Source: Anaerolineales bacterium (GTDB lineage Bacteria > Chloroflexota > Anaerolineae > Anaerolineales > RBG-16-64-43). Taken from it: DNA of 37,176 nt. How positions within the stretch are numbered: position 1 is the first letter of the stretch; each line of letters opens with the position of its first letter. The notes below the pieces were generated by a model. The model was not told where the DNA came from, did not search any database, and was given only the letters and a program-made list of their open reading frames with translations. The stretch covers positions 1 to 37,176 of the forward strand of contig JAFGKK010000017.1 of the NCBI GenBank assembly GCA_016928575.1. The letters are read 5' to 3'. Position numbers and translations under genes: made by a program. Shown here one piece after another: positions 10,923 through 31,234 of this stretch.

Positions 10923-11495
10923 TTACGCCGGAAGCCACAAAGCATAAGAAAGCTTGTTGTCTTCTCGGAACCTGACCGCGAGGCTGCCCCCGAGTTTTTC
11001 GGCGATTTTCCGGCACAGCATCAATTCCGGCTGGGTTACGAATTCTTCCTCGAATTCCGCGTTATTTTTCCAAGGCAGGATGATGCTATCGGCCGTCAGC
11101 CGCAGGGTGAATCCGCGGCGCCCATCCACGGCGGTCTCTTCCAATCCGATGGTGACCCAGCCTCCTTGCTGGGAGACCGTCAGCAAATGAATCACCAGCG
11201 CGTTGACCGCCCGGCGCAGGATTTCCTCGTCCACTGTCAGGGAAACCCCCGCGGCGCGGATTTGGATGCGGAGAATGACGCCCAGTTCGGCGGCCATGGT
11301 GGACAGCACCGCCGCTCCCCGAAACAGCATTCCGACCAGATCGGCGTTCGACGGCCGCACAGGTTCGCACAGGCGCCGGGTTAACTCATCCGCGGCAGAT
11401 TCGGAAATCAGAATCTGCAACGGGTTTTCGCCGCGTGCCGGCGGACGATTCTCCACCGCCTCAAAGCCTTTTCCCAAGGAAAACGCCTCCGACAA
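10923..11495 (-). CDS. Degenerate histidine-kinase-type ATPase domain protein
   Basis: The product (190 residues from a TTG at 11495) looks like the catalytic half of a sensor histidine kinase. DEEILRRAVNALVIHLL stands where the N-box helix would be, followed by GWVTIGLEE, and the C-terminus LMLCRKIAEKLGGSLAVRF matches the G2-side helix and strand. There is no phospho-acceptor His domain, no membrane helix, no clear DxGxG (G1) motif, and the second N-box Asn is Ile. It may bind ATP weakly or only partner other proteins. A second possible start is a TTG at codon 7, with GGAGG 8 bases upstream. It lies downstream of the small-peptide locus but beyond a terminator. Confidence 0.6.
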   Translation of the reverse strand: MSEAFSLGKGFEAVENRPPARGENPLQILISESAADELTRRLCEPVRPSNADLVGMLFRGAAVLSTMAAELGVILRIQIRAAGVSLTVDEEILRRAVNALVIHLLTVSQQGGWVTIGLEETAVDGRRGFTLRLTADSIILPWKNNAEFEEEFVTQPELMLCRKIAEKLGGSLAVRFREDNKLSYALWLPA

Positions 11496-11702: not shown

Positions 11703-11915
11703 TCATTGCATCGGGACAACATCCACGGGATTCAATCCGGACGGCTCCAAGGGGACAGGCAAGATGTCGGTTGCATTCTCCCTGGTGGTCAGGGCGCTGA
11801 GGCGGTCCCGCTGCATGCACCGCGGGCAGAATAGCCGGTACACTTCCCTTTCCACATATCCGCAGACGCTGCAGACCCGCTCGCCGCCCATCTTTTCGAG
11901 TAAGCTTTCGTTCAT
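11703..11915 (-). CDS. Small zinc-ribbon protein
   Basis: The 70-residue product has two CxxC pairs, C15/C18 (CSVCGY) and C30/C33 (CPRC), spaced as a compact zinc ribbon. The C-terminal half is Leu/Pro-rich and without motifs. It lies 45 bases after the NHLP-clan-like gene on the same strand and ahead of a strong hairpin terminator, so it is probably the last gene of that unit. The ribosome-binding site is modest (AAAGGA or AGGGA ahead of the ATG). Function is unknown; zinc-ribbon adaptors or regulators of this size are common. Confidence 0.65.
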   Translation of the reverse strand: MNESLLEKMGGERVCSVCGYVEREVYRLFCPRCMQRDRLSALTTRENATDILPVPLEPSGLNPVDVVPMQ

Positions 11916-11960: not shown

Positions 11961-12248
11961 TCATCCGCTGCGGGGCGGGAGGTCCACCTCAATCGGCCTT
12001 CGAAATTCGAACGCGGCATAGCCCTGAACCTTATGAGCCGCCTGCCTCCACAAACGCGCCACCCGCTCGACGCCGGCGGCGAATTCCTCGATGGTCTCGG
12101 CTTGAATGGCCAGCAAGGCTTCCTGCTCCCGGGGGTCAAGTCCAGCGGAACGAAGCAGTTGCACCCGATCCGATCCCAACAGCCGCGCACGGTAGGCGTC
12201 ACTCACAACAGCCTGACAGACAATTCTCTGTATCGCCGAGTTATGCAT
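11961..12248 (-). CDS. NHLP-clan-like small protein (nitrile hydratase leader-like)
   Basis: The 95-residue product resembles the leader-like proteins of the nitrile-hydratase-leader (NHLP) clan, part of which are RiPP precursors. It has an N-terminal helix, then SDAYRARLLGSDRVQLLRSA, then GLDPREQEALLAIQAETIEEF, the pattern of an Asp/Pro-capped 'F/YR..LL.D....L...GL' leader. No Gly-Gly cleavage site and no Cys/Ser/Thr-rich core is obvious; the C-terminus ends in EVDLPPRSG. It may thus be a leader-only partner protein rather than a precursor. GGAGG lies 9 bases before the ATG. It sits 54 bases downstream of the 27-codon peptide gene. Family placement is from memory of the pattern. Confidence 0.6.
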   Translation of the reverse strand: MHNSAIQRIVCQAVVSDAYRARLLGSDRVQLLRSAGLDPREQEALLAIQAETIEEFAAGVERVARLWRQAAHKVQGYAAFEFRRPIEVDLPPRSG

Positions 12249-12302: not shown

Positions 12303-12386
12303 TTAGAACCATCCACCTCCTCCCGGCGGCGGTGCTCCCGGAGGGCAAGTGAAGCGGATGGTTTGGCGGGAATTGATGCGACGCAT
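12303..12386 (-). CDS. 27-residue peptide gene with GGGGWF C-terminus
   Basis: A short open frame with the strongest ribosome-binding site noticed in the window: AAAAGGAGG (12400-12392 on the minus strand), 5 bases before ATG. The peptide begins MRRINSRQTIRF and continues with TCPPGAPPPGGGGWF, then TAA. The N-terminal half is basic (four Arg) and the C-terminal half is Pro/Gly-rich with a single Cys and a terminal Trp-Phe pair. I do not recognise it. Its place just before an NHLP-clan-like gene and downstream of a very large transcriptional regulator on the same strand suggests a precursor or signalling peptide. A leader peptide that couples translation to the next gene is an alternative. Confidence 0.5.
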   Translation of the reverse strand: MRRINSRQTIRFTCPPGAPPPGGGGWF

Positions 12387-12400
12387 GTGGGCCTCCTTTT

Positions 12401-13023
12401 GGCCTGGTCCCTCCCGATCTCCCTTTCCATGCTATTACCGCATCCTCAACAAACACCTCACAGTGGGATTGTCAGATATAGACGTTTAATCCTATCCGGA
12501 CCTAATTAATCCAATTTCGGTTTTTCTTGTAGGAGAAGGAAGAATTGGGACAGGCGCTCGGGACGGGCGCTTGGGACATTCCGCTGATGGAAAGCTATCC
12601 CCTCCCCTGAGGTAAAGAGGGAGTGTAGGAAGCCCGCCCCGACTCCGCCGTGCAGGCCGGGGGGCCGGGGGATAGGGGCGAGGTTGAATAACAAAAGGAT
12701 TTCTCCAAATAATTGAATTGACTGAGTAGAAAGAAGCGTCAATTCCGACCGGGTTTTCCTGCGCGGGACTCACCGAAAAATCGCACTGCCGGCCTGTTCG
12801 ATTTTTGGTTTTTTGTTTCCCTCTGAGAAGATATCCCCGGTGTCTTCAGCCCTTCTTCGACATTTCGGTCTGCCATCCGAAGCCATGCCGGGGCGTCGCA
12901 GAAAGACACCCAGCGGAAGACATCCGGCCTTCCAATCTCGCCCCGGCGTTTTCCGGTCGCAGCCCGGGATCGGGCGGCGGCGCAGCCGGACGGCTGTCAT
13001 GGATTCCGATATCTATTGTGGCC
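12401..13023. other. 623-base gap upstream of the peptide gene; palindromes and decayed sequence
   Basis: No convincing gene. The stretch is more AT-rich in places than its surroundings. It contains the inverted repeat at 12715-12745 and a Gly/Cys-poor, C/G-tract-rich segment (about 12595-12690) with CCTC and GAGG arms that looks like a dispersed non-coding repeat. It must hold the promoter of the peptide cluster; a TAGCAT hexamer at 12434-12429 (minus strand) is a possible -10 but has no -35. Confidence 0.5.
12715..12745. repeat. 8-bp perfect inverted repeat, possible operator
   Basis: GAATTGAC (12715-12722) and GTCAATTC (12738-12745) are exact reverse complements, 15 bases apart, in an AT-rich patch between the SARP-type regulator and the peptide cluster. 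It could be a regulator binding site or a hairpin. No T run suggests a terminator. Confidence 0.4.
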
Positions 13024-16000
13024 TTATTCGGCGTTCGAAATCAAATTGTCGTAGAGGGTGCGGGTTTCGAGCGGAGGATCCAATCCTAAATCGTCCCGCA
13101 GCAATAAGAGGTATTTTTGATAATGATCTACCATTTCGTGCTTTCTTCCCATCGCCGAGAGGATCTTCAGCATCCGCTGATGCAGATCGTCCCGGAACGG
13201 ATCGATTTCCAATCCGCGGGCGGCGCGCGCGCGCGCCTCCTCATACCGGCACTGCCCGAAATATTCGTCCGCCGCATCCCGAACCAACGCCAGGAACAAT
13301 TGGTTGATCTCCTCCCGGCGCCGGCCGGCCCAGTCGACCGGCACGTCCCCTAGGTATTCCCCGCGGAACAACTGGGCGGCCCGGTCCATTTCCGCAAGCC
13401 TCCGCCGGTCCGTGATCGGTAGCGCCAACGCCCGGCGGCCGGTTCTCTCAAACGCGGCGACGTCGTATTCGACCGTGATGTTCTCCGCCAAGCGGCAGAT
13501 CTGGTCCTTCAGCAGGAGGATGTCGGCTCCGACCGCCCGCCGGATCCGGTACAGCGTTTGATAGAGATTCGCCTGAGCCCGGCCGGCCGGCATCTCCGGC
13601 CAGAAGACGCTCAGCAGTTCCTCCCTTCCCACCGGCGAACGGTCGACCAGGTACAAAAAGACCTCTTTCGTCTTTTGGGAAACCCAGGCCGACCGGGAAA
13701 CGGCCGCTCCGCACCAAGCGATCTCCAAGGAACCCAAGGCATTGACCGCAAGCACCAAGGTTTCGGCCGGCGCGGCCGGGGATTCCTCGGCGCGGGGTTT
13801 CCGCAACTGCCGCTCGGACCGCTCCGCGAGGGATACGCACATCCCGCCCAAGGTCGGATGCCCCGCAAAAGCGTCCAGCAGGTCCCGCGCACACCCCGCC
13901 TGGCGCACCAGGCTCTGGTCCGATCCGAAGGCGAACACCGAATCGAACGCCGCGCGCAGGGATTCTTCCGCCTGCGGATTATTGCCCGCGCGGAAAAATG
14001 ATCGCGCCAGCAGGAAGCGCGCTTCGGCGGTGACGGTCTGGCTGGCGCCTGCGCACTCCAAAACCCCGAGGCCGTCCTTCAACAAATCCACCGCCTCGCG
14101 TGTGCGGCCCATTTCCTCCAGCAAGACCCCTTGCAGGATCCGGTCGCCCGCGCGCGTCACCTCGGTTTCCTTTTCCACCAATTCTTCCGCCCGCTGCAGC
14201 CATTCCATCGCGGCGGGATAGTTCTTCAACCACCGGTTCAGATCAGCCCACGCCCGGTAGAGATACGCGAGCATCGGCAAATCCCCGGTCTCCTCCGCCA
14301 GCCGGTCGGCCATGGCGTAGTACCCGCCCGCCTTGCTGTACTGGCCTCGGTCCTTCATTAAATCGCCCAGGCCGGCGAAGATCAGCGTCTGCGAATGCCG
14401 GTCTCCGGATTTCCTGGACCATTCCATCGCCTCGGCATAGGCGGCTTCCGCCTCCTCCAACTGGCCCATCATGTGCTGGTCGTAGGCCAGGTTGTTCAAG
14501 CCGATGGCGATCGGTCCCGGATAGCCGAGTTCCCGCCACATCCCCAAAGCCCGCCGCTGGAGGACGTAGGATTCCGAGGTGTCTCCCGCCGCTTGAAGCG
14601 TATTGGCCAACTCGGTCAGAACGTGCGCCCGGTCGTAGCTTTTCTCACCTTCGGGGAATTTGGCCAGGGCTTCCCGGAGGCAGCGGATGGCTTCCGGCAT
14701 CCTTCCCAACGCCGCCGCGCACCGTCCGGCATGCTCCGCCGCCATCCGCAGGTCCGCGATTTCCACCCCTCCTTCCGGGCCTTTCCGCAGGAGCTCCGCA
14801 GCGAGATCCCAGCCCTTCTGATACTCCCCTTTGCGCAGCGCCAGCCAGGCCCGGCTGACCTGCAGGCTGTTCCGGCGGGCGGTGTTGTGCGATCTTTCCA
14901 AACCCTGGCGGGAGATCTCCAGGTACTCCTCCGCTTTCAAAAAATCCCCGCTCATTCCCAGCGTCATCGCCGCGCAGCCGAACAGCCGCGGAACTTCCAA
15001 TCGGACCGGATACACACGCCGGGCCCAATCTTGAAGGGTCTGGGTCCTGCCCGATTCGTAGTACTTTTGAACGTTTTCCTCCGCCACTTTCGCGGCGCGG
15101 GACAAATCCTCCGCCTCGACGAAGAACGAAAACGCCGCCTCGGGCATGCCGACCCGCAAACTCCACTCGGCGGATTGGTTGAACAGCTGCTTGTGCCTGG
15201 CCGCGTCGCGTTTCATATGTTCGGCCAGCAGGAATTCGCGGAACAGATTGTGGAAACGGTAGATGGGCGGATCTTCCCCCGCAGCAAAGATGAACAAACG
15301 GCGGGCGTCCAGCTGCGAAAGCATCTGCCGACTGTCGGAACGGCCGAGGACGAAGTCGCAGGCCGCCGCGTCCATATCCGGGAGCACCGACGCCTCGAGC
15401 ATGAATTGCCGCAGCGGGCCGGGCTGTTGTTCGAGCACCTCGCTCGCCAGGAAGCGGTAGATGCGGTCCTGGCCGATGATCCCCTCGCCGAGGGGCAGGC
15501 CTTTCCACAGCAGGTGGCTGCTGAGCAGGATCCCGGTCACCCAGCCTTCGTTCGCCGAAACCAACGCCTCCGCTTCGGCCGCCGGCAACGAGATGCGGTT
15601 GCGGGCCACGACCAGGGCTTGCACCTCCGCGGGGGTAAAGCGCAGGTGTTCCTCGCTGAAACCGGCCGCCTGCTGCAGCGCCACCAGGGGCGTGATGTGC
15701 AGCTCCGGAACGCGGCGGCTGATCAGGAGCAGGTGCAGGGCCGGCGGCATCTCCCGCAGGATGGCGTTTATGAATTCGACAATCTGGGGGGAATCGTCCG
15801 TCAGGTGGAAATCGTCGATCACCAAAACGGTGAAATCCGGAAGCGTGCGGTCCAGCGCACCGGCCAGAGCCGAACCGAGCGCGCCGGGTTTGCCGGTTGC
15901 GGCCGGCAAGCCGATCAGATTCGGCGACGGAGGATCCCAATCCTTCCAGGCGAAGGCCAGCGCCTGGACGATGTCCGCGCAGAATACGGAGGCATCCCGG

Positions 16001-16227
16001 TCGCCGGAATCCAGTTGCAGCCAGGCAACCGGAGCATCCGAAGCGCGGGCGAATTGCGCCGCCAGGGTGGATTTTCCATATCCCGGCGCGGCGCACAACA
16101 GGGTAATCTTCCGATAAATATTCCCCTGCACGGCTTCCAACAGCCGCGGCCGTTCTAACTCCCCCTCAAGCGGTTTGGGGGGTAAGAACCTGGCTTTCTG
16201 CCGCGGAGCAAGCGGCGGAACGGGCAT
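13024..16227 (-). CDS. MalT-type STAND ATPase with SARP/BTAD transcriptional output
   Basis: The 1067-residue protein is a large signal-integrating activator. Residues 47-54 form a P-loop (APGYGKST), residues 134-140 a Walker B (VLVIDDF), and the ATPase continues to about 330 with the MalT-like YRFHNLFREFLL segment. A long TPR array follows (about 350-760). The C-terminus combines a winged-helix DNA-binding domain (about 805-900, KTKEVFLYLVDRSPVGREEL and ANLYQTLYRIRRAV) and a bacterial transcriptional activation domain (about 905-1060, VEYDVAAFERTGRRAL). This ATPase-TPR-wHTH-BTAD order is common in Chloroflexota. The ATG follows a TACAAT -10 by only 7 bases, so the mRNA is probably leaderless. 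Its targets are unknown; the peptide cluster just downstream is a candidate. Confidence 0.85.
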   Translation of the reverse strand: MPVPPLAPRQKARFLPPKPLEGELERPRLLEAVQGNIYRKITLLCAAPGYGKSTLAAQFARASDAPVAWLQLDSGDRDASVFCADIVQALAFAWKDWDPPSPNLIGLPAATGKPGALGSALAGALDRTLPDFTVLVIDDFHLTDDSPQIVEFINAILREMPPALHLLLISRRVPELHITPLVALQQAAGFSEEHLRFTPAEVQALVVARNRISLPAAEAEALVSANEGWVTGILLSSHLLWKGLPLGEGIIGQDRIYRFLASEVLEQQPGPLRQFMLEASVLPDMDAAACDFVLGRSDSRQMLSQLDARRLFIFAAGEDPPIYRFHNLFREFLLAEHMKRDAARHKQLFNQSAEWSLRVGMPEAAFSFFVEAEDLSRAAKVAEENVQKYYESGRTQTLQDWARRVYPVRLEVPRLFGCAAMTLGMSGDFLKAEEYLEISRQGLERSHNTARRNSLQVSRAWLALRKGEYQKGWDLAAELLRKGPEGGVEIADLRMAAEHAGRCAAALGRMPEAIRCLREALAKFPEGEKSYDRAHVLTELANTLQAAGDTSESYVLQRRALGMWRELGYPGPIAIGLNNLAYDQHMMGQLEEAEAAYAEAMEWSRKSGDRHSQTLIFAGLGDLMKDRGQYSKAGGYYAMADRLAEETGDLPMLAYLYRAWADLNRWLKNYPAAMEWLQRAEELVEKETEVTRAGDRILQGVLLEEMGRTREAVDLLKDGLGVLECAGASQTVTAEARFLLARSFFRAGNNPQAEESLRAAFDSVFAFGSDQSLVRQAGCARDLLDAFAGHPTLGGMCVSLAERSERQLRKPRAEESPAAPAETLVLAVNALGSLEIAWCGAAVSRSAWVSQKTKEVFLYLVDRSPVGREELLSVFWPEMPAGRAQANLYQTLYRIRRAVGADILLLKDQICRLAENITVEYDVAAFERTGRRALALPITDRRRLAEMDRAAQLFRGEYLGDVPVDWAGRRREEINQLFLALVRDAADEYFGQCRYEEARARAARGLEIDPFRDDLHQRMLKILSAMGRKHEMVDHYQKYLLLLRDDLGLDPPLETRTLYDNLISNAE

Positions 16228-18799: not shown

Positions 18800-19990
18800 T
18801 TAGGAGCGGTTGCCCTTCAGGCGCAGGAACGCCGGAAGGTCGTGATCCTCCCCGCCGTCGGCCATTCCGGAATAAGCCGGGACGCCCGGGCGCACCGCCA
18901 CTTCCATCGGGATCGCGGTGTTGATCCTCCGCGGCGCGGGTACGGCGGCCGGCGGGATGGCCGAGTTCGGCAGGGTCATCTGCGAAGCCTTCATCGGCGC
19001 CGGCCGGGCCAGGATGCGGTCGAGCTTGCGGGTCACCGCGGGCTTCTCGAATCCGGTCGCGATCACCGTGATCCGCAGTTCGTCGGTCAGGCTCGGATCG
19101 ATCACCGCGCCGAAGATCAGGTTGACGTCGGGATGGGCCGTCTCCTTGATGATCGCCGCCGCCTCGCTGACCTCGAATAGGCTGAGGTTGTTCCCGCCGG
19201 TGACGTTGAAGATCACGCCGCGCGCGCCGTCGATGGTGATGTCGAGCAGCTGGCTGGAGATCGCCTGCTCGGCCGCCTTGCGCGCCCGGTCCTCGCCCGA
19301 GGCGCGGCCTACGGCCATCAGCGCCGCGCCGCCTTCCTGCATGATCGCCCGCACGTCGGCGAAGTCGACGTTGATCAGGCCGGGGATGGTGATCAGCTCG
19401 GAGATCCCCTGCACGCCCTGGCGCAGGACGTCGTCGGCGATGCGGAACGAATCCTGCAGGCTGGCCCGCTTTTCGGTCAGTTGCAGCAGGCGGTCGTTGG
19501 GGATCACGATCAGCGTGTTGACGTACTCCTTGAGCTTGGCGATCCCCTCCTCGGCCGTGTGGGCCCGGCGGTTGCCTTCGAACGTGAACGGCTTGGTGAC
19601 CACCCCGATGGCCAGAGTCCCGACTTCCTTGGCGATCTGGGCCACGATCGGCGCCGCGCCGGTTCCCGTCCCGCCGCCCATCCCGCCGGTGATGAAGACC
19701 ATGTCCGAGCCCTTGATGATCTCGTAGAGCTCGTCCGCGGATTCCTCGGCGGCCTTCTGGCCTATCTTTGGATCGCCGCCCGCGCCGAGGCCTTTGGTGA
19801 CCTTTTCGCCGATCCGAACGCGGGTGGGCGCGTTCGAAAGCAGCAGCGCCTGGGCGTCGGTGTTGACCGCCACGAACTCGATTCCCTTGAGATCCTCGGC
19901 GATCATCCGGTTGACGGCGTTCTGCCCGCCGCCTCCCACGCCGATCACCTTGATTCTTGCAAACGCCTCCGACCTTTGTACCGATGCCAT
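18800..19990 (-). CDS. ftsZ: Cell division protein FtsZ
   Basis: The 396-residue tubulin homologue forms the Z ring. It shows the nucleotide-binding [13 protein letters not shown] (17-29), the tubulin signature [14 protein letters not shown] (101-114) and the catalytic T7 loop NVDFADVR (207-214). A Pro/Ala-rich linker (about 335-380) leads to the conserved C-terminal tail [13 protein letters not shown] that binds FtsA. The ATG at 19990 has GGAGG 5 bases upstream; a TTG 15 bases earlier is in frame but lies ahead of that ribosome-binding site. It is the last gene of the operon, about 106 bases after ftsA. Confidence 0.97.
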
Positions 19991-20096
19991 GGATCCTCCT
20001 CTCAATTTGTCGTGTCGCTTTGTCCGATCCGGTTCCGATCCGTTCGCGGATCCCGGTGTTCCGTCCGCGCGGCTCCTCCGCCGCGGGAAGGCCGTC

Positions 20097-21347
20097 TCAG
20101 GGCGCCATGCCTTTCAGAATCGTCTTGATGAAATCCTGGATTTTTTTTCCGAAATCGGCGCCCTCTTTGCGCCGGGGCTTGTGCGCCGGCTTCGCCGCCG
20201 AGAGCCCCTGGACTTCCTTCTGCAGCCAAATCAGCAGGCCGACGCTGGTGGCGTAGGCCGGGCTGTTCAATTGATCCACCAGCCCCTTGAGCTCCCCGGG
20301 GCCGGCGACCCGCACCGGCAGGCCGAGGGTTTGGCTGGCGTACATCCGCACTCCGGGAAGCAGGCTTGCGCCGCCGGTCAACACCACGCCCGCCGGCAGG
20401 TAATTCAGCATCCCCACCCGTTCGATCTCCTCCAGGACCATGGAGAAGATCTCTTCCATGCGCGGCTGGATGATCGACACCAGATCCGACCGCAGAACCT
20501 GAGCCGGAGCCTCCTCGCCGAACAAGCGGACCATGAAGCTTTCGCCGGGCGTGATTTCCGAAGGCAGGGTGTGGCCGTGCTGCAGCTTGATCGATTCGGC
20601 AATTTCGGCGGGCATCCGCAGTCCGTGGGCGATGTCGGCGGTAACGTGGTTGCCGCCGACGGGCAACACCGCGGTGTGGCTGACCGTGGCCTCGTGATAG
20701 AGCGCCAGGTCGGTCGTGCCGCCGCCGATGTCGACCACAGCCGCGCCCATCTCGCGCTCCGTCTCGCGCAGGACCGCCTCGGCCGAGGCGATCGGATTGA
20801 GGACGAAGCCCTCCACTTCCACGCCGCAGATCTGGACGCATTGAGCCAGATTGCGCAGCGCGGTGGTGGAGGCGGTGATGATGTGGGTCTCCATCTCCAG
20901 CCGGAAGCCGTGCATCCCGACCGGATTGCGGATCCCCTCCTGGCCGTCGACGACGAATCCGCGCGGGATCACGTGCACGATCTGCCGGTCGTAAGGAACC
21001 GCGATTGCGCTGGCGGCTTCGTTCGCGCGGGCGACGTCCTCCGCGGCGATGATCTCCCCGGACACCCCCACCACGCCCCGGCTGTTGATCGAGGAAACCT
21101 GCGCCCCGGCCAGGCTGACCACCGCCGAGGCGATCTCGTAGCCCGCCGTCCGCTGGGCTTTGTCGACCGAGGCGGCGATCGCGCGGGCCGCTTCCTCGAC
21201 GTTGACCACCACGCCGCGCCGGAGGCCGCGCGAAGGTTCGATCCCCACCCCGATGACCTGCAGCGAGCCGTCCTCCAGCTCCTGCGCCACCAGGGTGCAG
21301 ATTTTCGTCGTCCCGACGTCGATTCCTGTGTACAGATTCACATTCAT
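20097..21347 (-). CDS. ftsA: Cell division protein FtsA
   Basis: The 416-residue actin-like ATPase anchors FtsZ to the membrane. Visible are phosphate 1 (GIDVGTTKI, 9-17), an SHS2/1C domain (about 85-165), phosphate 2 ([14 protein letters not shown]) and the adenosine motif [14 protein letters not shown]-terminal amphipathic helix, [16 protein letters not shown], would serve as the membrane tether, preceded by a Lys/Arg-rich linker. Length is typical. It starts 24 bases after ftsQ. Confidence 0.96.
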
Positions 21348-21371
21348 CCGATCCGCATCCTTGCCGCGCGC

Positions 21372-22307
21372 CTACCGGCGGTAGAACGGCTGACGCAAAT
21401 TCTCCACGCTCACCATCCCCGGCCGGATTCCGCGGGCGGTCAGGGAATCGACCAGCCGTCGGTAGGCGTCCAGCTTCCGGACGATCTGCCCCGAAGTGCC
21501 GAAGTACACCATCCATCCGCCGGGGTCCATCATCCCCAGCCCGTGGCGGACGTCGTAGATCAGCCGGGTTCCCGAGGGAAGCGCCACGGTGAGCTCCAGC
21601 GCTTGCACCACCACCTGCGGGTCGATGTCCGCCGCGCCGTCCAGGGCGATCGCCAGCCCCTGCTCGCGGACTTCCAGGCGGACCAAATCCGAACGTTCGG
21701 CGAGCGCCGGGAAGAAGACGCCCTCGGCATCCACCCAGAAGGAGGCGTTTTCCTGGATCCACAACAGAATCGGTTCGCGCTCCAGGATCCGCACCGTCAC
21801 CTCGCCGTTGACCTCCACGCTCACCGACGCCCGCCGCACGGCCGGGATTTTTCGAAGGATCTCGGCTTCCGCCGCGGCGGGCGAGATCAAAAACAGATTG
21901 CCGCCCTGCAAGCCCGAGGCGCTGAATACTCCATCCGGGCTGAGATGCCGCAGGCCTTCGATCTGCGCCGACCGCACCTGGAAATTCGGAGAGGTCAGCA
22001 GAAACAACAAGCCGGCGCAGGCCAATCCGGCCAGAAGCACGGCCAGAGAGCGCGGCGAAAAGGAAATCGTCACTGCCGGCAGCTGGACTTCGGCCCCCCG
22101 TTCGGCCAGGGGGATGCTGTACATCCGCTGGGCCCGGGCCGCCGGACCGCGGGGGCGAATTTCCCATCTCGGCTGCGGCGCGGCAGGGCGGGCCGCAGCC
22201 GGATGGGAACGCCACTCCGGATTGTTCCGCGCCGCCGCCTTGCGGCGCTTGCGGCGCAGCTGATCCGCTCTGGTCGTGTTCTCCTTCCGTCCCAATACGA
22301 TTGCCAT
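21372..22307 (-). CDS. ftsQ: Cell division protein FtsQ/DivIB
   Basis: The 311-residue divisome protein has a basic cytoplasmic N-terminus (about 1-85, many Arg/Lys and Pro), one membrane helix (LAVLLAGLACAGLLFLL) and an extracytoplasmic POTRA domain that begins FQVRSAQIEGLRHLSPDGV. A beta domain (VRRASVSVEVNGEVTVRILERE onward) follows. FtsQ links FtsL and partners to the Z ring. The ATG at 22307 is chosen because GAAGG lies 5-6 bases upstream; an in-frame GTG at 22340 is possible. Members diverge strongly, but position and topology make the call secure. A 171-base gap to ddl contains a GC hairpin. Confidence 0.9.
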   Translation of the reverse strand: MAIVLGRKENTTRADQLRRKRRKAAARNNPEWRSHPAAARPAAPQPRWEIRPRGPAARAQRMYSIPLAERGAEVQLPAVTISFSPRSLAVLLAGLACAGLLFLLTSPNFQVRSAQIEGLRHLSPDGVFSASGLQGGNLFLISPAAAEAEILRKIPAVRRASVSVEVNGEVTVRILEREPILLWIQENASFWVDAEGVFFPALAERSDLVRLEVREQGLAIALDGAADIDPQVVVQALELTVALPSGTRLIYDVRHGLGMMDPGGWMVYFGTSGQIVRKLDAYRRLVDSLTARGIRPGMVSVENLRQPFYRR

Positions 22308-22423
22308 GTTTGCCTTCAAATTCCTCAGATTGTCCGCCACCCGGAGCGCCCGCTTTTTTCCTGGTTTGGAAGCGAAAGATCCCGATCCAGGTCCGGAGAG
22401 GCTCCGCTTCCCCTCGCAGCCCC

Positions 22424-22454
22424 CGCTCCGCAGAGGCCGGCGCGGGGCGGAGCG
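22424..22454. repeat. GC-rich hairpin in the ddl-ftsQ gap
   Basis: CGCTCCGC (22424-22431) and GCGGAGCG (22447-22454) are perfect 8-base inverted arms. No T run follows on the minus strand, so termination is unlikely. The 171-base gap is the longest in the operon and may contain an internal promoter for ftsQAZ, although no convincing hexamers were found. Confidence 0.45.
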
Positions 22455-22478
22455 CTTGGAAAGACTTCCTTCCCGCGA

Positions 22479-23594
22479 TTAATTCCTGCGATAGCTCCGT
22501 TCGTTCTTGGCGCGCTCCGCGTGCCGCTCGAGCGCAAGATCAATCAATCGGTCGAGCAAATCGGGATAGGGCAATCCGCTTTTTTCCCAAAGCTTCGGGT
22601 ACATGCTGATGGCGGTGAAGCCCGGCATGGTGTTCAATTCGTTGAGGAACACCTCGCCGGTCCGGCGGTCCATCAGGAAATCGGCCCGCGAAAGCCCGGC
22701 GCCGTCGATCGCCCGGTACGCCTCCACCGCCCAGCGCTGGATCTCGCCGGCCTTTTCCTCCGGGATCGGCGCCGGGATGAGCAGCTGCGAGGTTCCGTCG
22801 ACGTATTTCGATTCGTAGGAATAAAACTCGCGGCTGGGAACGACCTCGCCCGGGACGGAGGCTTCCGGCCGTTCGTTGCCGAGCACGCTGACTTCGATCT
22901 CGCGGGCGTCGATCCCGCGCTCGACCAGCACCCGCCGGTCGTAGCGCGCGGCATCGGCCATCCCCTCCATCAAATCGGAGCGGTTGGCGCAGCGCGAAAT
23001 GCCGACCGAGGAGCCGAGGTTGGCCGGTTTGGTGAACAGCGGGTAGGCGCCCACCGCTTCCGCCCGCCGCACGGCCCCGTCCAGGTCGTGCGCGATCTCG
23101 CTCCGGGTGCAGAGGATGTATTCCGGAATCGGAATGGCGTGGGCGCGCATCAACTGTTTGAACAGCGCCTTGTCCATCGCCACCGAGGAAGCCAGCACGC
23201 CCGCCCCGACATAGGGCACCTCGGCCATCTCGAGCAGCCCCTGCAGCGTGCCGTCCTCGCCGAACGTCCCGTGCAGGACCGGGAAGACCACGTCCACCTC
23301 GCGGAAAAGCTTTAAACGCAGCTCCGCGTCGCCCCCGTCCGGCCGGATCTCCCAGATCCGCGACGGCCCCGGCTCGGCCAGCATGGCGGCGCGTTTGCCC
23401 CCGCCGCTCCGGCTTTGCAACGCCTGCATCACCCCCGCGCCCGCCATCCAGCGGCCTTCCGGGGTGATGCCGATCTCCACCACTTCGTAGCGCGCGGGAT
23501 CGAGCGCGTCGAGCACCGAACGGGCCGACATCAGGGAGACTTCGTGTTCCCCGGAGCGGCCGCCGTATATCACTCCGATCCGCAGTTTACCCAT
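22479..23594 (-). CDS. ddl: D-alanine-D-alanine ligase
   Basis: The 371-residue enzyme joins two D-alanines with ATP to make the dipeptide that MurF adds to the peptidoglycan precursor. It shows the N-terminal GVIYGGRSGEHEVSLMSA, then HGTFGEDGTLQGLLE and the ATP-grasp PLFTKPANLGSSVGI. The C-terminal FLNELNTMPGFTAISMYPKL completes the magnesium/ATP and dipeptide site. It starts at ATG 23594 and overlaps the murCB stop by 8 bases (ATGGGTAA), so the two are translationally coupled. This is the canonical Ddl; the gene at 150-1361 is a divergent relative. Confidence 0.95.
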   Translation of the reverse strand: MGKLRIGVIYGGRSGEHEVSLMSARSVLDALDPARYEVVEIGITPEGRWMAGAGVMQALQSRSGGGKRAAMLAEPGPSRIWEIRPDGGDAELRLKLFREVDVVFPVLHGTFGEDGTLQGLLEMAEVPYVGAGVLASSVAMDKALFKQLMRAHAIPIPEYILCTRSEIAHDLDGAVRRAEAVGAYPLFTKPANLGSSVGISRCANRSDLMEGMADAARYDRRVLVERGIDAREIEVSVLGNERPEASVPGEVVPSREFYSYESKYVDGTSQLLIPAPIPEEKAGEIQRWAVEAYRAIDGAGLSRADFLMDRRTGEVFLNELNTMPGFTAISMYPKLWEKSGLPYPDLLDRLIDLALERHAERAKNERSYRRN

Positions 23595-25968
23595 GTCCGC
23601 CTCGCAGCGTCTCCGGCCAATCTCCAGCCATGACGATCTCCGGTTCAAGGTCGATCCCGAACCTTTCCCGCACCGAACGGCGGGCCAAATCCATCAGGGC
23701 GCGGATGTCTTCGGCCCGGGCGTTCCCCAGGTTGAGGAAGAAATTCGCATGTTGGGTCGAAATCTCCGCATCGCCCATCCGGTATCCTTTTAGTCCCGCC
23801 GCCTCGATCAGCCGTCCGGCGTAATCCCCGGGAGGATTCTTGAACATCGATCCCATCGAGGATCCGGTCGGCTGGGTTTCCCGGCGCTTGGACAGAAATC
23901 CGCCGATCCGGGCGACGGCTTCCGAAGGATCGCAGCGCCGCAGCGCAAACTCCACCGCCAGCACCACCGCCTGCCCGGGGCTCTTGCGCAGGAGGCTGGA
24001 ACGATAGGAAAATTCCAGCGCATCCGGCCCGATCCGCCTGCGGTCGGCCGAGATTCCGGCCTTTTTTTCCGATTCCATTCGTTGCAAGATTTCGACCATT
24101 TGCAGCGAGCCGGCGGTGTCGGCCCCGAAGGCGCCGGCGTTGCCCACCACCGCGCCGCCGACGGTGCCCGGGATCGCCGCCGCCCACTCGAGGCCGGTCC
24201 AACCCATCTGCGCCGCCTGGCGCGCCACCGCACCGATCGAAGCGCCGGATTCGGCCCAGACCACCGCGTTGTCCTTCGCCCCGTTGTTCCCCGGCCGGAT
24301 TTCGTAGCGCTTGCCACGGTTCAGCAGGACCAGGTCGCGGCAGCCGTTGTCGGAAATCAGCGTGTTCGATCCGCCGCCGAGGACAAAGAACGGGATTTCA
24401 TCCCGCCAGAGCCATTCCGCCGTCCGGGCCAATTCCTCCGCATCGCGCACTTCCACCAGCGCGTCCGCCAGCCCGCCGATTTTAGCCGTGGTCAGGCGGT
24501 CCAGGGGGACTTCCTCCTGTAGCCGGTCCCCGAAGTGCGCGCGCAGTTTTTCCAACGGGAGGATCGGCGCCCGGATCGCCGCGGCGCCCTCGGCTTCGAT
24601 CTGCCGCATCCGGCGCAGGACTTCCTCCCCGATCCGGTTGGCGTCGCCCGCGCTGAGCATCACCAGCACGTCCCCGCAGCGCAGTTCGCGCGTCAGGTAT
24701 GGGACGGCTTCCATTAGTTCAGGGATGTAGACGGCTTCGGTGTCGGTCATCGCGCGCACCATCTCCTCGATCGGGAACGCGGCGTCCACCGGTTCGCGCG
24801 CCCGATACACGGGAAGCACCACCGTTTTGTCGGCTTCGCCAAAGGCCTGCTCGAATTGCTTCAACAGCACCCTCGTCCGGGAATAGGTATGCGGCTGCCA
24901 TACCGCCCAGATCCGCCCCTGCGGAAAGCGCTGGCGCGCCGCGGAAAGCGTGGCGCGGATCTCGCTGGGATGGTGGGCGTAATCGTCCACCACCGTCACC
25001 CCGCAGGATTCCCCCTTGATCTCGAAGCGCCGTTCGGCGCCGTGATACTGGGCCAGGGATTTCGCCGCGTGCGAAAACGGAATCCCGCACAAATCCGCCG
25101 CGCACAGGGCGGCCAGCGAATTGCAGACGTTGTGCATGCCCGGCAGCCGGATTCGCACCCGTCCGAGCACCTCGCCGCTCCGCACCGCGAGGAAATCGCT
25201 TCCGCCCTCGGCGTTGGCTTGGATCTGGGTCGCCTGCCAATCGGCCTCCATCTCGACGGCGTAGGAATACACCGAAATGTCGGGCCGCCGCTTTCCCAGA
25301 TCCTCGACGACGTGGATCGCGCCGGCCGAATCCGCGCACACCGCCACCGAGCCGTCGGGCTGCATGCGGCCGAGGAATTCGGCGAAGGCCCGGTACAGGT
25401 CCTCGAGCGTCGGGTAGCAGTCCGGATGGTCGTGCTCGACGTTGGTCAGCACCGTGATCCACGGCGCCAGCCCGAGGAAGGCGCGGTCGTATTCGTCGGC
25501 CTCAATAACGAAATGGTCGCCCTGCCCCGCCCGCGCGTTGGCGCCGCCGAAATCGGCCAGCGCGCCGCCGGCGATGAAAGAAGGATCCAACCCCCGGCGG
25601 ACGAGCAGGTGGGCGATCATTCCGGTGGTGGTCGTTTTGCCGTGGGTGCCGGCCACCGCCACGGTGCGCTTGCCGCGGGTGAGCGGACCGAAGAATTCGG
25701 AGCGCTTGTAGACCGGCAGCCCCGCCCGGCGCGCCGCGGCCACCTCGACGTTGTCTTCCTTCACCGCCGAGGAGACGATCACCGCGTCCGCGCCGCGGAC
25801 GTTTTCCGCCGCGTGCCCGAGCTCCACCTGCGCGCCGAGGTCGCGCAGGCCGTCGAGGAAGGTGGATTCCGCCATGTCTGAACCGCTCACCCGCTCACCC
25901 CGTTCCAGGAGCACCCGGGCAATCGCCGAAAGCCCCGAACCGCCGATTCCGACCAAGTGGTAATGCAT
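23587..25968 (-). CDS. murC/murB: Fused MurC-MurB: UDP-MurNAc-alanine ligase and enolpyruvoyl reductase
   Basis: One 793-residue frame carries two enzymes. Residues 1-465 are MurC, which adds L-alanine to UDP-MurNAc: GIGGSGLSAIA (7-17), P-loop GTHGKTTTTG (107-116), EADEYD (156-161), NVEHDH (176-181) and DDYAHHPSEIRATL (328-341). Residues 470-793 are MurB, the flavin enzyme that reduces enolpyruvyl-UDP-GlcNAc: TTAKIGGLADALVEV, VLGGGSNTLISD, AAIPGTVGGAVVGNAGAFG (597-615), GSMFKNPPGDYAGRLIEAAG and EPEIVM. The linker is short and both halves retain their key motifs. MurB makes the substrate of MurC, so the fusion joins consecutive steps. ATG 25968 follows the preceding gene's stop by 1 base. Confidence 0.95.
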   Translation of the reverse strand: MHYHLVGIGGSGLSAIARVLLERGERVSGSDMAESTFLDGLRDLGAQVELGHAAENVRGADAVIVSSAVKEDNVEVAAARRAGLPVYKRSEFFGPLTRGKRTVAVAGTHGKTTTTGMIAHLLVRRGLDPSFIAGGALADFGGANARAGQGDHFVIEADEYDRAFLGLAPWITVLTNVEHDHPDCYPTLEDLYRAFAEFLGRMQPDGSVAVCADSAGAIHVVEDLGKRRPDISVYSYAVEMEADWQATQIQANAEGGSDFLAVRSGEVLGRVRIRLPGMHNVCNSLAALCAADLCGIPFSHAAKSLAQYHGAERRFEIKGESCGVTVVDDYAHHPSEIRATLSAARQRFPQGRIWAVWQPHTYSRTRVLLKQFEQAFGEADKTVVLPVYRAREPVDAAFPIEEMVRAMTDTEAVYIPELMEAVPYLTRELRCGDVLVMLSAGDANRIGEEVLRRMRQIEAEGAAAIRAPILPLEKLRAHFGDRLQEEVPLDRLTTAKIGGLADALVEVRDAEELARTAEWLWRDEIPFFVLGGGSNTLISDNGCRDLVLLNRGKRYEIRPGNNGAKDNAVVWAESGASIGAVARQAAQMGWTGLEWAAAIPGTVGGAVVGNAGAFGADTAGSLQMVEILQRMESEKKAGISADRRRIGPDALEFSYRSSLLRKSPGQAVVLAVEFALRRCDPSEAVARIGGFLSKRRETQPTGSSMGSMFKNPPGDYAGRLIEAAGLKGYRMGDAEISTQHANFFLNLGNARAEDIRALMDLARRSVRERFGIDLEPEIVMAGDWPETLRGGHG

Positions 25969-25969
25969 G

Positions 25970-26491
25970 TCACACAAAGACCACGATCACGAAGATGAAC
26001 GCCACGGCGACCGCCACGAACACCCACAGCTCGCCGAGCAGAATTGGCGGCATGTACTTCATCATCGACACGATCTCCGGATCCCTGGCGTGGGCCAGCG
26101 CCTGTTCGAAACCCGGAAACGGATATCCCGCCTGGTGCAGGAAAAACCACAGGCTGCCGAAGAGCAGCAGGCCGTTGAGCGCGCCGAGGACGATCCCCAA
26201 CAGCCAATCCTGCAGTCGTTCGCGCAGGAAACGGTCCGCCGGAATCCACGGCAGGCGCGGGGTCAGGTATCCGAAATACGCCAGGATCGCGAACACGCCC
26301 GCCCGGATGGCGAACACTTCCGGCGCCGGGAGCGAAGCCATGAGCCCCGAGGCGTATTTGTCGAGCAGCATGTTGATGAACATCGCCAGCACCAGCGCGC
26401 AGCTGACCAACAGCTCCTTGGCCCATCCGCGCAGCGAGCCGATTGCCGCGAAGAACAGCACCGCCAGCGAGAACACCAGGGGCATGGTCAT
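25970..26491 (-). CDS. CvpA-like membrane protein inside the dcw operon
   Basis: The 173-residue protein has four or five hydrophobic helices (about 3-22, 28-44, 62-77, 95-115, 152-172). The N-terminal GSLRGWAKELLVSCALVLA resembles the G-x-x-RG...E-L pattern of the CvpA (colicin V production) family, whose role is linked to envelope or cell-wall homeostasis in some bacteria. CvpA genes are not standard members of the dcw cluster. There is no ribosome-binding site; GATAAT lies 5 bases before the ATG, so a separate near-leaderless transcript is possible. The gap to murG is 128 bases. Confidence 0.65.
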   Translation of the reverse strand: MTMPLVFSLAVLFFAAIGSLRGWAKELLVSCALVLAMFINMLLDKYASGLMASLPAPEVFAIRAGVFAILAYFGYLTPRLPWIPADRFLRERLQDWLLGIVLGALNGLLLFGSLWFFLHQAGYPFPGFEQALAHARDPEIVSMMKYMPPILLGELWVFVAVAVAFIFVIVVFV

Positions 26492-26619
26492 GGCGGATTA
26501 TCCCGCTCCCGCCTGCCCTCGGCCGAAAAGGCCGGGGACGGGACGCTCCATCCGGCGGCCTGCCGCGCAGTCGCCGGCAGACGCACTTCTAGCCGCCGTA
26601 TAGCCTAGGGCGCGGTCGT

Positions 26620-27726
26620 TCACTTCGGCCCTTCCTTGACCACCGCGACCACTTCCCCGGCCAATTTCAGGGCTGAGTTTTTCTGATTGATCTTCTCGAG
26701 CACCCGGCGCATGTCCTTGCGCCGCGGCTTGTCGGCCATCAGCGCCAGCACTTCCGCCGCCATCCTTTCCGAAAGGGTTTCGTCCGGCAGAACGACCGCC
26801 GCCCCCTGGGATTCCAGGTAGCGGGCGTTGGTGCGCTGGTAGCGCCAGGCGTGCGGGTAGGGGATCAGGATCGACGGCAGCCGGAAGTGCGGGTATTCCC
26901 CAAGCACCGAAGCGCCTGCCCGCGAAACCGCGATGTCGGCGGCCGCCAGGGCGCCGCCCATCTCCTCGTGCAGGTAGGGATGGGCGTGGTAGCGCGCCTT
27001 GTGCCACTTCGGCAGGTTGTGCCGCACCTTCTCTACTTCAGGCCAATCCAGGGTTCCGGTTATGTGTATCACGTGCATCTCCTCCAGCAGTTTCGGCAGC
27101 GCCGCCGTCAGCGCGCGGTTGATCGACCGCGCTCCGCGGCTCCCGCCGAATGCCAACAACACCGGCGCCTCCGCCGGGATCCCGAAGGTTTTCCGCCCTT
27201 CCGCGCGGGTCGCGCGCAGGATCTCCTCGCGCAACGGATAGCCGGTGACGACCACCGGTGCGCCCTTCGGGTAATGGACCGCCGAGCGGTCCGTCGTCAC
27301 CGCGATCCGCCGCGCGAACCGCGCCGCGAACCGCGCCGCCAGCGCCGGTTCGATGTCCGGCACGTACACCACCACGGGAACGGCCCGCAGGCACGCCGCC
27401 AAAACCGCCGGGGCGGCCAGATACCCGCCCGTCACGAACACCGCCTGCGCTCCGAAGCAACCGATTTCCCGCCAAGCGTCCACCGTCCCCAGCAGCAGCC
27501 GGACCGCGTTCCCCGGCGCGGCTTTCCATCCGACCCCGTGCATTCCGGCGGCGCGGATCAGCCGGATGGGGATGCCGGCCCGCCGGACCAGATCCTCCTC
27601 CATCCCCCCCCGCCCGCCGAGCCACAACAGCTCGGCTTCAGGCGCTGAATGCCGAAGCGCCTGCGCCGTTGCGAGGGCGGGGTAGATTCCTCCCCCCGTC
27701 CCCCCGGCGCAAAGTAGTATCTTCAC
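26620..27726 (-). CDS. murG: UDP-GlcNAc:lipid I N-acetylglucosaminyltransferase MurG
   Basis: The 368-residue GT-B glycosyltransferase converts lipid I to lipid II at the cytoplasmic membrane face. Visible are the first G-loop CAGGTGGGIYPALATAQAL, YVPDIEPALAARFAARFARRI, GGSRGARSINRAL (second G-loop) and ISRAGASVLGE-like VSRAGASVLGEYPHF with LIPYPHAWRYQRTNARYL. In many MurG proteins the first loop reads GGTGGH; here the His is Gly13. The start is GTG, with GGAGG 6 bases upstream, 88 bases inside the ftsW frame. Confidence 0.92.
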   Translation of the reverse strand: MKILLCAGGTGGGIYPALATAQALRHSAPEAELLWLGGRGGMEEDLVRRAGIPIRLIRAAGMHGVGWKAAPGNAVRLLLGTVDAWREIGCFGAQAVFVTGGYLAAPAVLAACLRAVPVVVYVPDIEPALAARFAARFARRIAVTTDRSAVHYPKGAPVVVTGYPLREEILRATRAEGRKTFGIPAEAPVLLAFGGSRGARSINRALTAALPKLLEEMHVIHITGTLDWPEVEKVRHNLPKWHKARYHAHPYLHEEMGGALAAADIAVSRAGASVLGEYPHFRLPSILIPYPHAWRYQRTNARYLESQGAAVVLPDETLSERMAAEVLALMADKPRRKDMRRVLEKINQKNSALKLAGEVVAVVKEGPK

Positions 27727-28861
27727 CCGTCGCCTCCGCGGCGCCGCCGCCTGGGCTGCGCGAGATGTTTAACAGCATCCCCATCGCTCCGAGCGTCAGC
27801 ACCAGGTTCGAACCGCCGTAGCTGAAGAAGGGCAGCGCGTTCCCGGCGAACGGCAGGACCTGCAGGATCGTCAGGATGTTGATCACCGCCTCGAGCGCCA
27901 CCCAGCTGGTGATTCCCGCGGCCAGCAGCAGCCCCAGTTCGTCGCGAGCCCGCATCGCGATCCGGTAGCCGCGCCAAATCAGCACGGCAAACAGGACCAG
28001 CACGAACAGCGCGCCGAGCAATCCAAGCTCCTCGCCGATGACCGCGAACACGCTGTCGGTGTGCGCCGCCGGCAGGGAAAAATACTTGAAGCGGCTGGCG
28101 CCGGCGCCCACTCCGAAGATCCCGCCGGAGGAAATCGCCGACAGCGCCTCGCGGATGTGCAGGTTCGCCTCGCGGATGTTCCGCCATCCGGCCAGGTAGT
28201 CCAGAATCCTTTGCGGCCGCATGACCCCCGCCAGGAGAATCCCGCCCACCCCGATCACCAGCGATCCGATCACCACGTTGTGGAGCTTCCCGCCGCCGAA
28301 ATAAAACATCGCAATCCCGATCAAAACCACCGTCACGGCGGCGCTGTAATCCGGCTCGATCGCGATCAATCCGGAGAACAACGCGATCAGCGCCGCGTAG
28401 GGGATCAGGCCGAGCTTCACGTCGTGCAACACTTCGGCCTTGGATACCAGCCAGACCGCCAGGTAGATCACGGTGACCAGCTTCGCCAGTTCCGACGGCT
28501 GGACCGAATTTCCGAACAGGCCCACCCGGGTGAGGGAATCCCCCTTGAGGATGACCACCGCGATCAACGCGGCCACGGTCGCCAGCGCCAGCAGGACGAC
28601 CAGGCCCTTGACCCGGAAGAAGATGTGGTAGTCGAGGACGTACATCACGCCCAGGAAGACCAGCCCGATCCCCGCCCAACCGAGTTGGCGCAGGAACAGC
28701 ACCCACACCGACTCAGCCTCGTAATAGACGTAGGAGACTCCCCAGGTGGTGGAGGCGACCGTAATCAGCCCGGCCGTCAGCATGGTGATCACTACCAGCA
28801 GGAGGATCACGTCGAAGCCGAGGTCCGCGCCGGTCATGCGCTCCTTCCACTGCCCTCTCAT
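27638..28861 (-). CDS. ftsW: Peptidoglycan polymerase FtsW (SEDS family)
   Basis: The 407-residue membrane protein is a SEDS glycosyltransferase that polymerises lipid II at the septum with FtsI. About ten hydrophobic helices start at FDVILLLVVITMLTAGLI. Signatures include the HTDSVFAVIGEELGLLGALF region and the C-terminal PFFSYGGSNLVLTLGAMGML. The start ATG at 28861 overlaps the murD stop as ATGA with GGAGG close by; a second ATG at 28837 is possible. The hydrophilic C-terminal tail (about 35 residues) overlaps murG by 89 bases. Confidence 0.94.
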   Translation of the reverse strand: MRGQWKERMTGADLGFDVILLLVVITMLTAGLITVASTTWGVSYVYYEAESVWVLFLRQLGWAGIGLVFLGVMYVLDYHIFFRVKGLVVLLALATVAALIAVVILKGDSLTRVGLFGNSVQPSELAKLVTVIYLAVWLVSKAEVLHDVKLGLIPYAALIALFSGLIAIEPDYSAAVTVVLIGIAMFYFGGGKLHNVVIGSLVIGVGGILLAGVMRPQRILDYLAGWRNIREANLHIREALSAISSGGIFGVGAGASRFKYFSLPAAHTDSVFAVIGEELGLLGALFVLVLFAVLIWRGYRIAMRARDELGLLLAAGITSWVALEAVINILTILQVLPFAGNALPFFSYGGSNLVLTLGAMGMLLNISRSPGGGAAEATGEDTTLRRGDGGRNLPRPRNGAGASAFSA

Positions 28862-30264: not shown

Positions 30265-30265
30265 C

Positions 30266-31234
30266 TCACATCGCCTTGGCCAGCGCCACGCCGACCATCG
30301 CCGCCAGCAGCCCGATCAGCCAGAACCTTTGCACCACCTGGGTTTCGCTCCAGCCGAGCAGTTCGAAATGGTGGTGCAGCGGCGCCATCTTGAACAGCCG
30401 TTTGCCCTTGGTCATCTTAAAATACCCCACCTGCAGAATGACGCTGGCCGTCTCCGCCACCGGGATGATCGCGATCACCGGCAGGATCGCCCATTGGGCG
30501 GTCATCAGCGCGACGACGCTCAACACGGCGCCGACCGAAAGCGACCCGGTGTCGCCCATGAACAATTCGGCCGGGTGGGCGTTGAACCACAGGAAGGCAA
30601 ACAGCACTCCGACCACCGTGAAGCAGAAGCTCATCAGGTACACCTGGCCCTGCAGGGCGGCGATCATCCCGTAGGCGGCGAAGGCCGTCGCGGAGATGAT
30701 CCCCGCCAAGCCGTCGAGCCCGTCGGTGATGTTGACGGCGTTGGTTCCGCAGAGGATGATGAAAGCGGCGATCGGCACGTACCACACGCCCAGATTGATG
30801 TCGGCCGGGACTCCGGGCAGGTACATGTTCGGCACCCGCAGAACGTATTTCAACCCGACGGCCACGCCGACCGCCACCACGGCCTGCAAGGGGAACTTCA
30901 CCCGGGCCCGCAGCGGCCGGCCTTTGAGGCCGAGCAGATCGTCGATCGCGCCCAATCCGGCGTAGACCACCATCACCGCCAGCGGCAGGAGGATGGATCC
31001 TCCGATGAGGGTCCGCCCGAGGATCGGCACCGTATTGAGCAGAAGGGTCATCGCCACCACCGGAATGACGATCAACAATCCGCCCATCGTCGGGGTGCCC
31101 AGCTTGGTCTGGTGGCTGCGCGGGCCTTCGACCCGGATCTGCTTCCCCACCCCCAAACGGCGCAGGATGCGCAGCAGCGGCCCGCCCCAGATGACCGTCA
31201 ACGCGAAGCCGATGGCTCCCAAGCTGAGCGCCAT
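30266..31234 (-). CDS. mraY: Phospho-MurNAc-pentapeptide transferase MraY
   Basis: The 322-residue integral membrane enzyme transfers phospho-MurNAc-pentapeptide to undecaprenyl phosphate, giving lipid I. It shows the catalytic acidic motifs GAIDDLLGLKGR, CGTNAVNITDGLDGLAG and FMGDTGSLSVG, plus the MraY-specific MAPLHHHFELLGW loop. About ten membrane helices are visible. ATG 31234 is preferred since AAGGAG lies 5 bases upstream; ATGs at 31249 and 31252 (the latter overlapping the murF stop) are in frame. Confidence 0.95.
   Translation of the reverse strand: MALSLGAIGFALTVIWGGPLLRILRRLGVGKQIRVEGPRSHQTKLGTPTMGGLLIVIPVVAMTLLLNTVPILGRTLIGGSILLPLAVMVVYAGLGAIDDLLGLKGRPLRARVKFPLQAVVAVGVAVGLKYVLRVPNMYLPGVPADINLGVWYVPIAAFIILCGTNAVNITDGLDGLAGIISATAFAAYGMIAALQGQVYLMSFCFTVVGVLFAFLWFNAHPAELFMGDTGSLSVGAVLSVVALMTAQWAILPVIAIIPVAETASVILQVGYFKMTKGKRLFKMAPLHHHFELLGWSETQVVQRFWLIGLLAAMVGVALAKAM

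Follow-up and report, generated by a model that had tools for sequence, protein, structure and literature searches.

A conserved 27-codon gene beside a STAND/TPR/SARP regulator in Anaerolineales and its glycine-tailed relatives in Chloroflexota: a possible peptide signalling system

Is a frame of only 27 codons, lying between two longer genes of an Anaerolineales bacterium, a real gene, and if so what could its product do? The frame is part of a stretch of 37,176 nucleotides, the whole of which is called the window. The features needed below are the following, with the basis of each in brackets.

10923..11495, minus strand: gene for a 190-amino-acid protein with very weak HATPase/histidine-kinase similarity (kept in both close relatives)
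11703..11915, minus strand: gene for a 70-amino-acid zinc-ribbon-like protein (order kept in both close relatives)
11961..12248, minus strand: gene for a 95-amino-acid Os1348/NHLP-clan-like protein (sub-threshold match)
12303..12386, minus strand: 27-codon peptide gene, product MRRINSRQTIRFTCPPGAPPPGGGGWF (translation, orthologues, pN/pS)
12392..12400, minus strand: ribosome-binding site AAAAGGAGG (sequence)
12429..12437, minus strand: candidate -10 region TAATAGCAT (aligned position in relatives)
12444..12461, minus strand: candidate SARP operator, an imperfect direct repeat GTGAGG-N6-TTGAGG with a 12-bp period (12-bp repeat across loci)
13024..16227, minus strand: gene for a STAND ATPase/TPR/SARP regulator of 1067 amino acids with OmpR-type wHTH and BTAD (domain and structure matches)

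The 27-codon gene and its neighbours

The initial annotation had described a strong ribosome-binding site five bases before a 27-codon ATG..TAA frame, and this is what the minus strand contains at 12400-12303. AAAAGGAGG (12400-12392) is followed by the five-base spacer CCCAC, the ATG (12386-12384) and a frame with a TAA ending at 12303. The translation MRRINSRQTIRFTCPPGAPPPGGGGWF agrees with the description of a basic N-terminal half and a Pro/Gly-rich C-terminal half ending in GGGGWF. The peptide has no hydrophobic export segment according to its hydropathy, and no Pfam or NCBIfam model matched it, or the related peptides tested, at a meaningful score. Of 100 control regions on the opposite strand, 17 also contain some short frame behind a good ribosome-binding site, which makes such a frame weak proof alone; it is conservation that raises the peptide frame above chance.

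Relatives were found by searching the genomes of the family with the 95-amino-acid downstream protein, the route that the annotation had suggested for finding conserved endings. Two related genomes, whose versions of this protein are 61% and 51% identical to it, were obtained and both carry the peptide; a scan of genome contigs with the protein gave no relatives. The orthologous peptides, MRHIISVNTVRFSCPPGSPPPGGGGWF in genome G002 and MFQTFSAATIRFSCPPGAPPPGGGGWS in G001, occupy the same slot, have 27 residues each and are preceded by strong ribosome-binding sites. Identity to the window peptide is 20/27 and 19/27 in the two genomes. Because the spacer between regulator stop and peptide start varies in length (637 nt in the window, 215 and 340 nt in the two relatives), the peptide frame is a conserved island, and the several open frames in this gap of the window are unconserved. 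In the window about 560 nt separate regulator and operator (12462-13023), far more than in either close relative, and this spacer may be an insertion. Frames starting at the GGAGGAGGTGG stretch within the peptide gene were rejected, being unconserved in the relatives.

Pairwise comparison of the three orthologous peptides gave pS 0.29-0.64 and pN 0.15-0.21, and pooled values of 0.49 and 0.18 (pN/pS 0.38, Nei-Gojobori). The conserved half is RF[ST]CPPG[AS]PPPGGGGW while the basic N-terminal half drifts. A synonymous excess was found in all nine peptide groups compared (pN/pS 0.10-0.49), and four MVSTRCPRDGALID copies had zero non-synonymous changes with 2-6 synonymous changes per pair. Two outcomes had been named in advance as refuting the frame, namely a lack of conservation and synonymous changes no more frequent than non-synonymous ones; since the frame and its C-terminus are kept ahead of the orthologues and pN/pS is below 1, purifying selection is indicated instead. 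The CCGGGAGGAGGTGG stretch is identical across the three closest relatives, as it would be if the frame were untranslated and the conservation that of a DNA or RNA element. Such an element is hardly credible given the synonymous excess in every group, the retention of start, stop and ribosome-binding site and the lack of any Rfam family match in the window. From the pattern of substitutions, the 27-codon frame is very likely a real gene.

The peptide gene sits between the regulator gene upstream and the Os1348-like gene downstream, all on the same strand, and the genes for the 95-, 70- and 190-amino-acid proteins have the same order in the window and the two close relatives. The 95-amino-acid protein scored 21.7 bits with PF14407 (cut-off 48) and 23.2 bits with NF038399 (cut-off 40), below the curated cut-offs. 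Its relatives scored higher (33.6 and 31.7 bits), still sub-threshold. The initial description of this gene as NHLP-clan-like thus gains from the scores of the relatives and from a partner model described below, with the match in the window itself staying under the threshold. The suggestion of a ribosomally made precursor or signalling peptide holds in so far as the frame is conserved ahead of orthologous neighbours; its functional part stays conditional. What had been overlooked was the STAND/TPR/SARP regulator upstream, together with the operator, and this regulator is a more informative neighbour than the 95-amino-acid protein. Elsewhere on the minus strand (18800-36578) is a cell-division and cell-wall (dcw-type) cluster, in which a 796-amino-acid frame (23587-25977), judged by eye, resembles a fusion of MurC and MurB.

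A family of glycine-tailed peptides at regulator loci

An alignment of ten sequences of the regulator's C-terminal part, used as a query, gave matches in 132 of the order's 201 genomes. In 59 of 100 loci the same strand carries, at most 650 nt downstream of the regulator, a short frame that has both a ribosome-binding site and a Gly-rich tail. The same rule gave 0/100 on the opposite strand, 2/100 at 850-1500 nt downstream and 9/2000 (0.45%) in dinucleotide shuffles; the rule was picked after viewing examples, so these controls carry the weight, and because many loci are related the counts are of non-independent events, in genomes of which some are fragmentary. Re-reading 11 loci that had the partner but failed the rule gave a peptide in L037, L040, L121, L124, L137, L154 and L158, very short peptides in L035 and L052, and an apparently broken copy in L095. 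No such peptide was found behind the second regulator of the window's genome (contig C71, locus L163). As judged from sequence, the window peptide is a member of a large family of tiny peptides with glycine-rich tails, hitherto overlooked, that adjoin regulators in Chloroflexota; the phylum name follows the initial annotation and what is generally known of such gene families, the genomes having been grouped by kinship.

The precursors comprise signal-peptide-like, tandem-core and minimal (8-29 residues) types, and the Gly-rich core is retained. Peptide lengths in the relatives are mostly 11-90 amino acids, with exceptions of 8-9 (L035 MRGSDGGFC; L052 MRGLDGGL, read directly from the sequence). 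Scoring of 80 peptides by hydropathy and repeats gave 46 with a short tail behind a hydrophobic segment, such as MKTKLNLIAASLSSLNRQHIQLFFVLLTLTMLVLGAGAPEDGGGVGR, 11 with tandem cores but no segment and 23 with neither, a class that includes the window peptide and in which the scoring also placed L101, a clear tandem-core peptide. The sequences CPPGAPPPGGGGWF, GPIPGGAGS and DGPSPGPVGG are examples of cores, and the L040 peptide reads MKSPRDQGVGSM. In L115 the core SPSDGGVGGRR occurs three times, and relatives of the same family have a single APEDGGGVGR-like core behind a hydrophobic segment (GAPEDGGGVGR in L118). Since the same core type is found either singly behind a hydrophobic segment or in tandem without one, the core is the likely functional unit. 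In genome G576, which is of another order, both features occur together: the N-terminus is hydrophobic, three LLANPPVGGGSSATG cores follow, and the gene is preceded by a near-perfect 12-bp repeat.

Three observations concern individual loci. L018:7180-7413 (G276) encodes MVMIETVFAQ followed by six KPGASGGFGG(Y/C) units, a 33-bp tandem repeat. Tandem cores in L115 and L039 (also L166 and L178) are split by RR (SPSDGGVGGRR, SPQASGDISRR), resembling dibasic cut sites. In L095 (G130:C49), about 160 nt past the regulator stop, the slot reads ATG TAA and then remnants of a Gly-rich repeat; this is apparently a broken peptide copy, with the operator and the Os1348 partner still present.

Of 74 loci, 51 have a tandem direct repeat with a period of exactly 12 bp in the 150 nt ahead of the peptide's start codon; shuffled sequences gave 2.9, and each of the other periods between 8 and 35 gave 1-11. 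The repeat sits near the -35 position. The repeated unit varies by lineage (GAAGCCT, TTCATAG, TTGACGG, GCATCCT) while the period is constant, and where a TANNNT box followed the repeat, its distance from the beginning of the second copy was 15-18 nt in 41 of 51 cases. The copy in the window is imperfect, yet in phase with TAATAGCAT. In SARP operators, which are direct repeats with a period of 11 or 22 bp, 8 bp lie between the 3' repeat and the -10 region (PMC10936776). The peptide gene probably heads an operon that the neighbouring SARP regulator activates.

The promoter-like element directly before the peptide counts against a very unlikely reading in which the frame is a leader peptide, with ribosome stalling at PPG/PPP and Gly runs controlling the downstream genes. 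The window frame does have PPG and PPP runs shortly before its stop and precedes the Os1348 gene, but tails elsewhere have no polyproline and several precursors are 45-90 residues long with a hydrophobic segment or tandem cores. The operator also recalls AfsR, the closest SARP with NOD and TPR, which activates afsS from a direct-repeat operator (PMC10936776). The peptide could accordingly be a small intracellular effector like AfsS, a SARP target acting on transcription or on downstream proteins and with no part in communication. The order of regulator, operator and small gene is the same and the window peptide has no export segment; the hydrophobic segment in 46 of the 80 relatives, the peptides of just 8-14 residues and the tandem cores without other sequence make an AfsS-type role rather improbable.

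With a partner model (HMM) built from fourteen Os1348-like proteins, all but one of 71 peptide loci (70) proved to have such a gene on the same strand. An HD-GYP-motif protein was encoded in 13 of 20 loci read to about 5 kb downstream, and Pfam gave an HD_5 domain in eight scanned proteins, mostly together with PAS or GAF. In the window's lineage the zinc-ribbon and HATPase-like genes are found in place of the HD-GYP gene. DUF5317 and Peptidase_M78 proteins are also present in the loci. L180:3997-4509 is an IrrE-like M78 peptidase gene by Pfam match, with similar frames in L017 and L019; its product might process peptide or regulator.

The constant partner and its NHLP-clan similarity speak for a RiPP-like product, modified or secreted, for which the Os1348/NHLP-like protein would act as leader or chaperone in trans while the SARP controlled expression in response to another ligand. 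Canonical Frankia_peptide/Os1348 proteins of other families in the phylum (L053-L081) end in the short Gly-rich tails KSAGRGFF, KTGGRGFI or KRGGTGLM, as if leader and core were split in the present loci, and these tails possibly represent an undivided leader-core form. No convincing separate Gly-tail peptide was found upstream of the strong Frankia_peptide members elsewhere in the phylum. Tandem cores would suit a RiPP-like product as well, and SARPs typically govern secondary metabolism (PMC10936776). No radical SAM, YcaO or lanthipeptide enzymes were noticed in the 20 loci (about 5 kb downstream) or in ten proteins scanned there, however, many precursors have a signal-peptide-like segment of their own, and it is sensors and HD-GYP proteins that recur beside the peptide genes. 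A RiPP-like product is the main rival to a signalling role, though an unlikely one, and the AfsS-type effector is the next.

The regulator and a possible autoinducing loop

The regulator matched TPR_12 (6.8e-22), BTAD (1.3e-17) and the NCBIfam MalT model (E 1e-56). Its AlphaFold model has pLDDT 85 and pTM 0.47, so the domain folds are good and their mutual arrangement is uncertain. Foldseek matches of the model were MalT, a STAND-TPR protein and AfsR. The TPR region (450-809) aligned with Rap-pheromone complexes at Z of about 25, with NprR-NprX at 19.3 and with MalT domain III (1hz4) at 22.8; the eukaryotic degron receptor APPBP2, in complex with a degron, scored as high as Rap, the two leading the list, and since TPR proteins generally score high these alignments indicate a suitable fold rather than binding. 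For the ATPase and sensor domains, the MalT chain 8bob_C gave Z 21.9 (rmsd 20.4). The SARP part (822-1067) aligned with AfsR structures at Z 19-20 (19.6). The predicted structure suggests that the TPR domain folds like known peptide-pheromone receptors, and that the locus may belong to an undescribed bacterial signalling system.

Co-divergence was analysed in 68 regulator-peptide pairs by comparing core distance with the distance of each regulator domain. The correlation with core distance was highest for TPR (r 0.60), followed by BTAD (0.55), ATPase (0.50), WHD (0.50) and DNA-binding (0.49), and peaked at about residues 501-650 of the regulator. With column numbers matched, TPR gave 0.566 and the other parts 0.486-0.538. 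Partial Mantel tests, which are noise-sensitive, left r 0.28-0.40 for TPR when each other part was controlled for (0/499 permutations; 0.38 with ATPase controlled), and the reverse partials were near zero or negative (-0.10 for ATPase given TPR). The TPR correlation persisted after controlling for Os1348 distance (0.32) and was weak in distant pairs (r 0.12-0.29). These values are suggestive of peptide-core divergence that tracks divergence of TPR over that of the other regulator domains.

The TPR sensor, the short peptide encoded next to it with its conserved core, the export-like N-termini seen in many relatives and the co-divergence together fit an RRNPP-like autoinducing system. That the peptide is an autoinducing signal sensed by its own STAND-SARP regulator is a proposition on which we are evenly divided. 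The model builds on the observed coding conservation, recurrent arrangement, operator periodicity, -10 phasing, domain architecture and predicted fold. The SARP part would bind the 12-bp direct repeat near -35 and activate the peptide gene together with those that follow it. Released from its precursor, the core would be sensed by the TPR superhelix of the regulator, closing the loop. The signal-peptide-like segment in many relatives suggests export and re-uptake. The peptide of the window's lineage has no such segment, so either another exporter would act or sensing would be intracellular. Eight PF00496 matches (oligopeptide-binding transporter proteins) were found in the window's genome, a type of transporter that is common and unspecific. 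Because a PAS/GAF/HD-GYP protein ends the operon in many relatives, turnover of cyclic-di-GMP would be a frequent output; the zinc ribbon and the HATPase-like protein occupy this place in the lineage of the window. The autoinducing model assigns no role to the Os1348-like protein.

Extended to the phylum, the proposal is that STAND/TPR/SARP receptors and Gly-tailed pheromone cores encoded immediately downstream, whether single, tandem or minimal, form a Chloroflexota-wide system of peptide communication with an HD-GYP phosphodiesterase as frequent output. This wider claim is a tentative one, which we judge to fall just short of even. If signalling is true, genetically encoded peptides would be a new class of ligand for STAND regulators, and synthetic peptides would allow a direct test of what naturally induces a large group of uncharacterised SARP regulators. 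Even without signalling there are dozens of conserved genes, some of 11-14 codons, with coding-level evidence, in a class that is usually dropped by gene callers.

Comparison with known systems

The literature on Franean1_4349, on SARPs with peptides, on RRNPP in Chloroflexi and on HD-GYP with SARPs, searched mostly outside subscription journals, gave no prior description of peptide signalling in Chloroflexota. MalT shares with the regulator a STAND ATPase and TPR-like sensor domains. It has a LuxR-type DNA-binding domain and senses maltotriose, and unlike the regulator it is not known to have an adjacent peptide gene. The 95-amino-acid protein and its relatives match the Os1348/Frankia_peptide models of the NHLP clan weakly. 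The proteins scored are below the curated cut-offs, however, the protein is here a separate partner of the peptide, and no counterpart was noticed of the Pseudomonas modification genes (PMC7726476).

AfsR-afsS of Streptomyces likewise combines SARP, NOD/STAND and TPR in one protein, with a small target gene and a direct-repeat operator near -35 (PMC10936776). The OmpR-type wHTH and BTAD of large SARPs are present in the regulator, as the BTAD match and the AfsR alignments indicate. The domain order is reversed, with the SARP part C-terminal, and the small genes encode peptides with Gly-rich tails, many of which begin with a hydrophobic segment. The operator period is 12 bp rather than 11 (or 22), found in 51/74 loci with the -10 region in phase; the imperfect copy in the window is a candidate.

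RRNPP/RRNPPA systems (Rap, Rgg, NprR, PlcR, PrgX, AimR) resemble the locus in having a small propeptide gene adjoining a TPR receptor gene. In many relatives of the window peptide the N-terminus looks export-like and the C-terminal core is short, and the predicted TPR superhelix aligns with the Rap-Phr and NprR-NprX complexes. The RRNPP literature found concerns Firmicutes and does not mention Chloroflexota. Membership is defined by several features (PMC10075063). The window peptide, with 27 amino acids, is within the 10-100 residues of a propeptide, and the genes are adjacent in that no other Gly-tail frame with a strong ribosome-binding site comes between them on the same strand, over a distance of 637 nt. 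The TPR receptor is represented by the TPR_12 match and the Rap-complex alignment, with peptide binding predicted. For Sec-type/PptAB export, judged by hydropathy alone, the hydrophobic segment is absent from the window peptide and present in 46/80 relatives. The cores are Gly-rich and in some lineages multi-copy, unlike those of RRNPP systems, and the receptor has 1067 residues (about 1070, against 250-500). It combines a STAND ATPase with a SARP domain at its C-terminus, where RRNPP receptors have an HTH domain at the N-terminus. Being twice too long and having other effector domains, the regulator is not an RRNPP member, though it would work alike in the proposed model. If signalling is true, RRNPP-like logic would thus reach a receptor of a different architecture.
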